A stretch of DNA of 64,000 nt, from the NCBI GenBank assembly GCA_022508265.1, contig JAFLVP010000004.1:20372-84371 (forward strand), read 5' to 3'. The stretch is from Clostridiales bacterium (GTDB lineage: Bacteria > Bacillota > Clostridia > Christensenellales > Borkfalkiaceae). The position numbers were made by a program, and so were the translations under genes. Position 1 is the stretch's first letter; every line of letters begins with the position of its first letter. Shown here piece after piece: positions 1-3,237 of the stretch. The notes beneath the pieces are model-generated. The model saw nothing but the letters and a program-made list of their open reading frames with translations, was not told where the DNA came from and did no database searches.

Positions 1-2330
1 CACGTCTTGGAAACGCCTTTAATTATTACCTCTTTTTTGTCTACGATAGCCTTTGCCTCTACGAGCCCCAAGCCCGTATACGCGCGGATAATTTTTATCG
101 TTTCTATTTTGTCGTTTCCCTCGCTCATCAGAATAACGCTGTACTCTCCTGCTCTTGCTGCGGGAATTTTATTAGTATCGGTATTTGTAGCCACCTCTGC
201 CAAGCTTGCGCCGTTTTTAAGATATCTTTCGTACACCTTAATTGTGTTTTGCGATTCGGTTACTCTTGCTTTTTGCGTATTAAACGCTTTCTCCTTATTT
301 CGTAAACGGTAATATTTTGCATTGTTTTTATTAACCGAGTTATTTATAGGCACCAGTAAAATTGCCGTCGGCAAAAGCGCCAACACGGCGCCGCCCACAC
401 CGGAAGCCACAGCAAATATTAGGAAGCTTCCCATATAAGTACCGACGTCGCTGTAATCCAATTCAAAAAACGAAATTCCCAGCATCGGCTCATTGTTGGA
501 ACACGCATAGCCGAAAATTCCGGTAAATGTGCCGAACAATAATACTATACATAAAATGACAAATATTCGGTACAGTCCACCGAATGAAACTTCTTCTCGT
601 TGTTTTATTTTGCCGTTTATTTTATATTCCTCTTGATATTCTTTCTCCTCTTGGGCGCATATCTCTTTTTTCTTTTCGAGATTTTTTAACTCCTCGGCTT
701 TGAGCTCCTCAACGCGGGCTCTTACACGCGCCATAAACTCGTCGTAGTGCGCCTTCTGCTTATCGTCGCCGTAAGAATAAGCCTGTTGCAGGTTTTTATT
801 TCCCATTATCGTTTTAACCTTGTTTGCGTTGAGGTTAAGTCTGTTTACCGTTTCGTCGCCCGTAAGAGAAACTTCCAATAAAAACTTTCTCCAAGCGTTA
901 TCGGACGTGTTGTACATATCCCTTATACGCTGCTCCTCCTCGGCTTTGAGGGCGTTTTTGTACTGCTCGTTGGCGTAATCTTCAAACTCCTTGACGAGTT
1001 TTACGGACCCGTCCTTCGAGTACTGCTTTGCGGTTTTGTAATGCTTGTCGTTTAAAGTCTCCTGAATTTGCCCCGAGCTCTTACCGTTTAAAAGGTCTTT
1101 ATAAGATTTGTTCCTGCTTGTCGAAAGCATAAGACCTATCCACGCCTCCGCGCTCTCGGGGTCGATATCCAGAACCTTGTTGAAGTAATCGGTTGCGCTG
1201 TCAAATTCGCCGCCCGTAAGGAACTGGTTGGCGCGCACTAAAAGCGAACGGGTGGTTGCCGAGGTCTTGGTTTCGACGTGAGCGGGAGCTTCTCTTATGT
1301 TTTTGAGCCTCTCCTCGAGCTCGCGCTGTGCCTCGCGCTGCTTTTCTATCTCCTTTAAGATTGCCGCCTCGCTCTCTTTTTTAGCCTGCTCCGCCTGCGC
1401 CCTCCTCGCCCGCGCCTCGGGGGTGTGGTCCTCTACGAATTTGGTTATCTTTTCACTCGCATTTAAGGAGTGCAAATCTATACCCTGTATCTTGCCGTTC
1501 TTGCCGGGAAGATATTCAACGGGTCTGCCGTAGAAGGCAATGGTTATGCTATCGCTCTCCTTCTGCTCATCGCCGACAAGACGCAAAAATCTCGTGTACT
1601 CGTTCTTGACCCACTTGGTATGCAGGTACTCTTCCTTTCCGCATACTACTATCATACATTCGCTGGTGTAGAGTGCATAGAGTATCCTCGCCTCATAGTC
1701 CGCACCCGTTACGTCTCCAAGCTCTCTCTCCGAAAAGAAAGGATTGTAGCCCTTCCCCTTTAAATCAAAGTATATATCGTCCGCGTGCTTGTAGTCCGCC
1801 GTCCTCTGCTTTGTTGCGTCGTCGGTTACCTTTACGCATATAAAACAGTCGTAGTCCTTGCCCGTCTGCTTTAATTTATAAAATTCTTCCCTTATGTAAT
1901 CTATCTCCGCGGCTTGTCTCTCGTATTCCTCTCTCTGCTCTGCGGTGGCAAGTCTTACGGCCTGCTTATAGTTTGAGTTTTCGCTTATCCTGTCCGTTGA
2001 GATATGGTGGCATATGGGCTGAAGCCTGTCGTTTACTTCGTCCTTTACGTACTGCACCTTGAATTGAGATATCGCCATGCCCCAATATGCCTCGGGCTCT
2101 TTGGGGGAGAGCTCCGCCGCCTTTTTATAGAAGGAATAGGCGTCGTCGAAACGGCAGATATACAAACTGCTTTCGCCGTCGTGCAAAAACTTGAGCGCGG
2201 CGGGCGTTATATCCTCCTTGGGAAGAGTGAACTTCGAACGGCAATATTCGCACTGTACTACGCCGTTTACGGCTGTCTCTATGTCAATCTCCGCACCGCA
2301 ATTTCTGCATTTTATATTTTCAAGTTGCAT
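1..2330 (-). CDS. TIR-domain protein, 3' end beyond window: N-terminal zinc ribbon, TPR-like region, TIR, second TPR-like/coiled region, TM segments, C-terminal ribosomal L7/L12-CTD-like domain
   Basis: Not in the ORF track because it runs off the left edge. Manual minus-strand translation from ATG 2330 (SD AGAGGAG upstream): MQLENIKCRNCGAEIDIETAVNGVVQCEYCRSKFTLP... YDCFICVKVTDD...DIYFDLKGKGYNPFFSERELGD...HTKWVKNEYTRFL (TIR-like)... C-terminal ..EYSVILMSEGNDKIETIKIIRAYTGLGLVEAKAIVDKKEVIIKGVSKT (L7/L12-like). Confidence 0.85.
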   Translation of the reverse strand, partial: MQLENIKCRNCGAEIDIETAVNGVVQCEYCRSKFTLPKEDITPAALKFLHDGESSLYICRFDDAYSFYKKAAELSPKEPEAYWGMAISQFKVQYVKDEVNDRLQPICHHISTDRISENSNYKQAVRLATAEQREEYERQAAEIDYIREEFYKLKQTGKDYDCFICVKVTDDATKQRTADYKHADDIYFDLKGKGYNPFFSERELGDVTGADYEARILYALYTSECMIVVCGKEEYLHTKWVKNEYTRFLRLVGDEQKESDSITIAFYGRPVEYLPGKNGKIQGIDLHSLNASEKITKFVEDHTPEARARRAQAEQAKKESEAAILKEIEKQREAQRELEERLKNIREAPAHVETKTSATTRSLLVRANQFLTGGEFDSATDYFNKVLDIDPESAEAWIGLMLSTSRNKSYKDLLNGKSSGQIQETLNDKHYKTAKQYSKDGSVKLVKEFEDYANEQYKNALKAEEEQRIRDMYNTSDNAWRKFLLEVSLTGDETVNRLNLNANKVKTIMGNKNLQQAYSYGDDKQKAHYDEFMARVRARVEELKAEELKNLEKKKEICAQEEKEYQEEYKINGKIKQREEVSFGGLYRIFVILCIVLLFGTFTGIFGYACSNNEPMLGISFFELDYSDVGTYMGSFLIFAVASGVGGAVLALLPTAILLVPINNSVNKNNAKYYRLRNKEKAFNTQKARVTESQNTIKVYERYLKNGASLAEVATNTDTNKIPAARAGEYSVILMSEGNDKIETIKIIRAYTGLGLVEAKAIVDKKEVIIKGVSKT

Positions 2331-2361: not shown

Positions 2362-3237
2362 TTACTCTGTTGCTAAAGTGTCAAAGCAAATTTCTTTTCC
2401 GCCGTCTATTTTGTATATCTTTCCGCGTATTTCAAGCCAGACGGGGATAGCCGAAGGATTTTTAACCCTCTCGCCGTCAAGCGAGAATATAAGATTTTTA
2501 TACGCCGTGATATACTCGTAAATTTCCATATTGGTTGCAAACCAGATATCTTTATGTCCGCTTGCGCGCTTTGCAAAATTTTCTATAAGCTCCCAATTGT
2601 TGTCGTCGTCAAACTCGTAGGCGTGACCCCAAAGCCAGAACAGCCAACCCTCTCTGTGCTTGAACTCCTTTTCGGGAGACTCGTTAAAGAATTTCTCGGC
2701 AAGCTCTTTAAACCTTTCGTCGCGGTGGTGGCAGGTGGGCTTTAATCTAAGCCAATCGTTTTGAATTCGGAAGCTGTACGAGCTTTCCGTAGTGCGGGCG
2801 TAGACCACGCCGAGAGCTTTAAGCATTCCGACAATTTCATCGTTGTATGCGCCGTACGCGTACGCCATACCGCGCACCGTGCGGTTATACTTGGTTTCAA
2901 GATAACTGCGGTTTAAAAGCATTTCGCGCATAGCCTCCGAAAGAGGAACTTTATCAAGAAAGATGTGTCTGTCGCCGTGCAGGGCGATTTCCTGGCCGCA
3001 GTCCTTATATAATTTAAACGCGCTCTCCTCATCGAGACGGTTGTGATTGCCCTTATGTTCGAAAAGTCCGCTGTTTAAGTTGAAAGTACCCTTCAAGCCG
3101 TACTTGTTCATTATCTCCAAAAGGCGGATATCGGCTTGAACCCCGTCGTCGTAGCTCAAAGTCAAAGCTTTGCTTTTTCCGCCCGGGAAGCGTATATATT
3201 TTTCCTCATACATCTGTATGAACTTCTTCATTTTCAC
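2362..3237 (-). CDS. polysaccharide deacetylase family protein (NodB homology)
   Basis: KALTLSYDDGVQADIRLLEIMNKYGLKGTFNLNSG motif. Confidence 0.85.
   Translation of the reverse strand: MKMKKFIQMYEEKYIRFPGGKSKALTLSYDDGVQADIRLLEIMNKYGLKGTFNLNSGLFEHKGNHNRLDEESAFKLYKDCGQEIALHGDRHIFLDKVPLSEAMREMLLNRSYLETKYNRTVRGMAYAYGAYNDEIVGMLKALGVVYARTTESSYSFRIQNDWLRLKPTCHHRDERFKELAEKFFNESPEKEFKHREGWLFWLWGHAYEFDDDNNWELIENFAKRASGHKDIWFATNMEIYEYITAYKNLIFSLDGERVKNPSAIPVWLEIRGKIYKIDGGKEICFDTLATE

Follow-up and report, generated by a model that had tools for sequence, protein, structure and literature searches.

A clostridial membrane-anchored TIR protein with a ribosomal L7/L12 C-terminal domain and relatives with exchangeable tails

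Introduction

Is a TIR domain really joined to the C-terminal domain (CTD) of the ribosomal stalk protein L7/L12 in one membrane protein, and what could such a tail do? This question is raised by the left end of a 64,000-nucleotide stretch of a Clostridiales genome (G000:C34:20372-84371, hereafter the window), where an initial annotation, made from the letters alone, had described an N-terminal ribbon, TPR-like repeats, a TIR-like block, transmembrane (TM) segments and a stalk-like C-terminus, with roles in immunity or translation sensing offered as inference. Here, we show that the TIR-L12 fusion is real, and we weigh what its tail may be for.

Results

Architecture of P0002

The minus-strand frame is open from the ATG at 2330 to the left edge of the window, as had been claimed, and covers 776 residues. 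Its reported absence from the ORF track would be explained by the default of the ORF listing, which passes over frames that reach an end of the sequence. The contig extends further left, and following it to the C-terminus gave a full gene of 801 amino acids (P0002), whose final 25 residues and stop codon fall outside the window; the gene ends at C34:20296, 76 bases beyond the left window edge. The earlier placement in 1-2330 holds for residues 1-776, but the C-terminus lies partly outside the window. As listed in Table 1, the proposed architecture was borne out throughout, with the ribbon, the TPR regions, a TIR fold with its glutamate, the TM anchor and a true L7/L12 CTD.

Table 1. Features of P0002, its upstream neighbour and the cassette of the same genome (window coordinates unless a locus is given)
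Feature	Position	Strand	Basis or remark
P0002, 801-aa ZnR-TPR-TIR-TPR-coil-TM-L12CTD protein	1..2330	(-)	residues 1-776 in window
Zinc ribbon C8 C11 C27 C30, residues 1-40	2211..2330	(-)	16-row core alignment
First TPR-like helical region, residues 43-107	2010..2204	(-)	profile match and AF2
TIR domain, residues 157-304	1419..1862	(-)	Pfam TIR_2 and structure match
E244 of W240-V-K-N-E244 (WxxxE), candidate catalytic glutamate	1599..1601	(-)	alignments A1, A9
Second TPR-like repeat region, residues 360-437	1020..1253	(-)	profile match and AF2
Long coiled helices, residues 444-572	615..1001	(-)	AF2; fast-evolving between sister species
TM segment 1, residues 589-607	510..566	(-)	hydropathy 2.57
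TM segment 2, residues 635-666	333..428	(-)	hydropathy 2.23 and 1.81
L7/L12 CTD, residues 729-795	1..146	(-)	729-776 in window, rest to about -54
Polysaccharide-deacetylase-like gene	2362..3237	(-)	directly upstream of P0002; syntenic marker, outside system; named by reading
G000:C13 cassette	L279:5412-10996		Band7/SPFH - 140 aa - 199 aa - 188 aa ESCRT-III-like - double AAA - zinc-ribbon trypsin-like protease

The four cysteines of the C-x2-C...C-x2-C ribbon (C8, C11, C27 and C30) are invariant in an alignment of 16 proteins that match over ribbon, TPR and TIR, and the region gave weak matches to Zn-ribbon and RNAP subunit P profiles. Pfam TPR matches were found in the full protein near residues 67-91 and 363-400. 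The AlphaFold model of P0002, built from a 32-row alignment (A6) from which bL12 rows were left out as they were misaligned in the full-length alignment, has a mean pLDDT of 82, with low confidence in the middle parts at 602-650 and 714-727. Both TM stretches named earlier were found, but the second reads ...GGAVLALLPTAILL and not ...AVLAVLP..., one residue having been misread. Four lysines or arginines precede the first stretch, none lies between the two and six follow the second; this charge bias puts both ends of the predicted TM hairpin in the cytosol, such that the TIR and stalk domains would share one side of the membrane.

The TIR domain was found by Pfam TIR_2 (PF13676) at residues 178-289 (E 5e-10, 40.3 bits, cut-off 28) and was modelled as an alpha/beta TIR fold at residues 162-301. 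Residues 157-312 superpose on the SPARTA TIR-APAZ protein (VIA Z 15.7 over 140 residues), followed by SARM1 (Z about 14), AbTir (12.5) and RUN1 (about 12), and Foldseek agrees with the TIR and L12 structure matches of the model. The candidate glutamate is E244 of a WxxxE motif: W240 and E244 are invariant in the 16-row alignment, E244 is invariant in alignments A1 and A9, and it aligns with the glutamate of WCLDE in RUN1, of which an E100A entry bound to NAD is among the structure matches. A regular expression for WxxxE missed 21 of 198 core proteins, many of them fragments or near variants (WMKNE, WLKNE) and some truly lacking the motif. Since 124 of the 152 bacterial TIRs tested showed no NADase activity in lysates, according to PMC9092222, the glutamate by itself is no proof of NADase activity. 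From its sequence and model, the P0002 TIR is a probable NAD-cutting effector. None of the PADLOC models, including Thoeris ThsB, matched P0002 at E 0.01.

An L7/L12 CTD with a conserved factor-facing stretch

The claim that the C-terminus follows the ribosomal L7/L12 CTD held in both profile and structure searches. In the full protein, Pfam Ribosomal_L12 (PF00542) matched residues 731-792 (E 7.2e-14, 52.3 bits, cut-off 25.9), and the model of residues 729-795 fits that domain of E. coli L7/L12 (1ctf) with an rmsd of 1.1 A over 67 residues and 43% identity. The model shows the complete b-a-a-b-a-b domain at residues 730-796 with pLDDT mostly 84-93. The full-length bL12 profile TIGR00855 was not reached by the 776-aa P0002 (40.2 bits, cut-off 84.4). 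The sole other L12 match in the genome is its own 125-aa ribosomal bL12. Compared with this bL12, the helix 4 - loop - helix 5 stretch of P0002 is identical at 15 of 20 positions and the remainder of the CTD at 16 of 46 (Fisher p 0.003). For bL12s of other genera against the same protein, the fractions are 0.75-0.95 in helix 4-5 and 0.51-0.68 in the remainder, such that the remainder of the P0002 CTD falls below every bL12 row. In P0002, conservation of the factor-facing stretch thus matches that of ribosomal proteins, and the rest of the domain has relaxed; among bL12s themselves, too, this short stretch is the best conserved part. At the putative GTPase contacts in helices 4 and 5 of L12 (K65, I69, K70, R73 and K84 in E. 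coli numbering), P0002 has K, I, K, R and K by alignment reading. Translational GTPases bind the CTD of bL12, as stated in PMC10931766.

Conservation of the locus in a sister species

The gene block is conserved in the sister genome G064, with flanking proteins 89-99% identical and the polysaccharide-deacetylase-like neighbour syntenic at 90% identity. The G064 orthologue of P0002 lies beside the same KDPG-aldolase-like neighbour, shares 84% identity with P0002 up to residue 706 and ends right before the start of the L12 CTD. A second, tandem TIR gene in G064 (L068) does carry an L12 CTD. Between P0002 and its orthologue, dN/dS is low in residues 1-80 (0.016), in the TIR domain (0.037) and in the second TPR region (0.08), in contrast to 0.29 for residues 466-595 and 0.28 for residues 596-706; flanking genes of the same species pair range from 0.03 to 0.16. 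This contrast, together with the orthologue that lacks the CTD, indicates that the effector core is under strong purifying selection, while the tail region changes by drift and by gain or loss.

A chance origin of the fusion is ruled out by the Pfam E-values, by L068 and a protein from another genome (L152) as two further independent TIR-L12 proteins, making three, and by the match to the sister-species gene as far as residue 706. An assembly artefact, in which a chimeric contig or a frameshift had fused a TIR gene with a fragment of rplL, can be practically dismissed. The assembly is of the MAG type with 43 contigs and the sister orthologue has no CTD, which would fit an artefact, but the frame of P0002 is single and uninterrupted, its CTD differs from the rplL product of the genome in 30 of the 46 positions outside helix 4-5, and the L12 CTDs of L068 and L152 are found on other contigs of other genomes.

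Two further ideas on the locus were rejected. The L12 tail of P0002 does not come from the tandem paralogue, as the CTDs of L068 and P0002 are not close in the alignment. P0002 also does not lie in a defence island of the window: by reading, the genes around it are of sugar-catabolism and uronate/pectin type, polysaccharide-deacetylase-like, MATE-like and GH43-like.

A patchy family with a constant core and exchangeable tails

A scan of genome contigs gave at least 575 relatives, mostly from MAGs of gut Clostridia; the cultured Pumilibacter muris and Pseudoflavonifractor capillosus are among the best 80 of these. A family member, L084, is found in P. muris CLA-AA-M08. The ZnR-TPR-TIR core was found in 76 of 398 genomes of the taxonomic family, in 13 of its 18 genera, and in 22 of 391 genomes of the class. 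The family is patchy and multi-copy, with up to five matches per genome. In G000 itself, a second member (L281:706-3093, G000:C1) combines ZnR-TPR-TIR with RCC1-like repeats and lies between cysteinyl- and alanyl-tRNA-synthetase-like genes by reading. A search of plasmids gave only rplL-type matches, in two records, a search of phages gave no matches, and a search of viral contigs gave two distant relatives.

The core is followed by tails of many types, including BspA-LRR, RCC1, DUF6273, TM coils, GroEL-like segments, EF-Tu domain 2 and L12. Of 103 unique tails, 84 were put in set A2, and these match 56 Pfam families (LRR_5 25, RCC1_2 14, TPR_2 13, DUF6273 7 and L12 3). A third set (A3) has 39 rows, most from the 84 tails, with L077 and L126 added, and a fourth (A4) holds 62 new tails after LRR- and RCC1-type tails were left out by regular expression; no additional host-machine module was found among these 62. 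An L12 CTD occurs on only 3 of 198 unique, 3'-complete core proteins (P0002, L068 and L152), and no TIR-L12 fusion was described in the literature searched, which lay largely apart from subscription papers. The joining of the two domains was rightly called unusual, and as far as our literature searches show it is undescribed.

Other tails also resemble host machinery. L152 ends in EF-Tu domain 2, half an L12 CTD and a CFI-box C-terminus. In L145 (6004-8499), the TIR core is followed by two GroEL-like segments (Pfam Cpn60 1.8e-11; duplication by reading), and serine-recombinase-like genes adjoin it by reading. L167 belongs to another TIR clade, and its L12-like stretch is degenerate and lacks the basic residues; a local profile scored it at E 0.0013, and Pfam did not list it at 0.001.

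L12 domains outside the ribosome and outside TIR proteins

Counting G000, 25 of 391 genomes of the class sample have more than one L12 match at 1e-4, and the extra places were read for part of 24 genomes (L309-L321). No TIR core was found in the 12 class-sample ORFs with an L12 match. Three non-TIR, non-ribosomal proteins (L311, L312 and L313) combine EF-Tu domain 2 with an L12 CTD; the N-terminus is of lipoprotein type in two of them and of TM type in the third. Further non-TIR proteins with an L12 CTD include one with DUF6709 (L309), one with MORN/LRR (L314), a TM coil protein (L316) and several small membrane proteins, and in L315 an L12-like stretch lies beside a DUF6273-like stretch by reading. 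In the family sample, 5 of 201 genomes have a second L12 match: P0002, L068, the weak TIR match L167, a weak ribbon-TM match (L166) and a likely chance match (L168). In a genus relative (G213), a protein of 348 amino acids (L079:5921-6967) lacks the TIR core and has two L12 CTDs.

Because non-ribosomal L12 CTDs sit in such diverse non-TIR proteins, these sequences indicate that L12 serves these Clostridial bacteria as an accessory module that moves between proteins, and a link to translation is not required. It is quite possible, if slightly doubtful, that the CTD of P0002 is a generic interaction or oligomerisation module without a translation link, one of a pool (L12, LRR_5, DUF6273, EF-Tu domain 2, zinc ribbons) whose members are added to many membrane and surface proteins in gut Clostridia. 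The L12 domains of unrelated Clostridial proteins, some of them lipoprotein-like, argue for this, as do the neighbouring DUF6273-like stretch in L315 and the L12-like stretch of L167 that lacks the basic residues. However, the tail of P0002 is predicted to be cytosolic, and its helix 4-5 stays at ribosomal bL12 level while the remainder drifts.

The host-like tails also bear on an integrated decoy, in which the tail would mimic a host component (the stalk, EF-Tu domain 2 or the apical part of GroEL) bound by phages or toxins, and binding would trigger the TIR domain, in the manner of plant NLRs that have integrated domains. The three L12 tails among 198 proteins, EF-Tu domain 2 in L152 and the duplicated GroEL-like tail of L145, next to its recombinase-like genes, are consistent with such baits, and the CDI toxin CdiA-CT NC101 binds EF-Tu domain 2, as given in PMC9086364. 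Host-machine tails are rare, however, most tails being LRR, RCC1, TPR, DUF6273 or coils, and the pair of EF-Tu domain 2 and L12 also occurs without TIR, in proteins with lipoprotein-type N-termini, which weakens the decoy further. We consider it improbable.

A Band7/SPFH cassette around relatives

In the neighbourhood of P0002 relatives, we repeatedly found a cassette that encodes a Band7/SPFH protein bearing zinc ribbons, a pair of small helical proteins, an ESCRT-III-like protein of 187 amino acids, a double-AAA ATPase, the TIR protein and a trypsin-like protease that has a zinc ribbon; by Pfam, its members include Band_7_1, AAA and Trypsin_2. An SPFH gene lies within 3.5 kb of the TIR gene in 50 of 159 non-redundant loci. 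Many of these loci are short; among the 83 that exceed 9 kb, 37 have such a gene. Within the same distance in the 159 loci, AAA was found in 15, the ESCRT-like protein in 9 and the protease in 7. TIR relatives in G249, G025 and G252 are in or beside the cassette, and L152 has a Band7 gene directly upstream. In G000, the cassette is on C13 without a TIR gene, and P0002 is outside it on C34. A small membrane protein of about 235 amino acids and unknown family (L146, L134 and others) lies near TIR genes in 36 of the 159 loci.

The 187-aa protein matched the Snf7 profile weakly (E 1.1-8.5), and the top ten Foldseek rows for its model (pLDDT 67.8) are all ESCRT-III, at E 0.02-0.4; the ESCRT-III label is thus no more than suggestive. 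No match came from searching PDB profiles with the alignment of ESCRT-like proteins. Since a Pfam scan of the N-terminus of the cassette AAA protein found no MIT domain, we do not use the terms MIT or Vps4-like. According to PMC10936438, systems of ESCRT-III plus Vps4 occur in archaea and eukaryotes only.

Operon partners of membrane-remodelling type raise the alternative of a Band7/SPFH-ESCRT-like system for membrane stress or repair in which the TIR domain would be a scaffold without catalytic activity, and the many bacterial TIRs that show no NADase activity in lysates (PMC9092222) fit this as well. The invariant W-x-x-x-E in the 16-row core alignment and the low dN/dS of the TIR region (0.037) speak against it, yet a few relatives did lose the motif. 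On balance, a scaffold of this kind is unlikely.

Discussion

The reading that we favour, although the chances for and against it are about even, is that P0002 is a dispersed, membrane-anchored TIR effector of a shuffled ZnR-TPR-TIR family with an interchangeable adaptor or sensor tail. The tail (L12 CTD here; LRR, RCC1, DUF6273, GroEL-like segments or EF-Tu domain 2 elsewhere) would bind a partner that reports damage or attack. The TPR and coil-TM parts would hold a P0002 oligomer at the membrane, presumably acting in trans with the cassette. On triggering, the TIR domains would pack and cleave NAD+ or make a signal, and growth would stop. A translational GTPase (EF-Tu, EF-G, IF2 or RF3) would be the most natural candidate to bind the P0002 tail, given its conserved helix 4 - loop - helix 5. 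P0002 may thus be a sensor that couples translation or membrane attack to cell shutdown.

Of the two roles suggested earlier, translation sensing fits the conservation of helix 4-5 at ribosomal level, and the sensing of translation factors by the tail would be possible on sequence grounds; however, unrelated proteins of Clostridia have L12 CTDs as well, some of them with lipoprotein-type N-termini. An immune role is plausible on this analysis because the family is patchy and multi-copy, its tails are shuffled and its nearest folds are SPARTA, SARM1 and plant TIRs; however, P0002 matched no PADLOC model and, by reading, has no defence genes among its neighbours in the window.

A bolder extension is that gut Clostridia hold a receptor-like repertoire, in which a constant TIR effector coupled to the ESCRT-III/Band7/AAA cassette carries swapped host-machine baits, copies of the ribosome stalk, EF-Tu domain 2 and the GroEL apical domain, that would catch phage proteins or toxins exploiting these machines; we regard this as a long shot. 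In this family, the effector core stays nearly unchanged while tails are traded, among them parts of the translation apparatus and of chaperones, and gene order ties it to a bacterial cassette of membrane-remodelling type. If the tails are sensors, then cultured and uncultured gut bacteria would use an NLR-like logic without the NLR switch, and the family would offer a direct test of fragments of host machines as bacterial baits. The extraribosomal proteins with L12 and EF-Tu domains are a neglected group.

P0002 shares with ribosomal bL12 the CTD fold and the factor-facing stretch; unlike bL12, it is an 801-aa membrane protein. Plant NLRs with integrated domains combine a constant TIR effector with swapped host-like modules, as the P0002 family does. 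In contrast to these NLRs, P0002 has no NB-ARC or STAND switch in a Pfam scan, and a decoy role of its tail is putative. With SPARTA TIR-APAZ, SARM1 and plant RUN1/RPV1, P0002 has the TIR fold and the WxxxE glutamate in common; in place of their APAZ, Ago, ARM/SAM or NB-ARC parts, none of which was seen in P0002, it has a zinc ribbon, TPR, a TM hairpin and an L12 CTD. The gut bacterial TIR NADases of Weagley 2022 (PMC9092222), some of them proven NADases, are similar in having TIR_2-type domains in gut bacteria; the main text of that paper makes no mention of zinc ribbon, TPR or leucine-rich tails, and we identified no P0002-type protein in it. As in the cassette, the PSP/ESCRT operons described in PMC11237479 and PMC10936438 bring together a zinc-ribbon Band-7 protein, a helical ESCRT-III/PspA-like protein and an AAA ATPase, whereas the cassette adds to these the ZnR-TPR-TIR protein and the zinc-ribbon trypsin-like protease.
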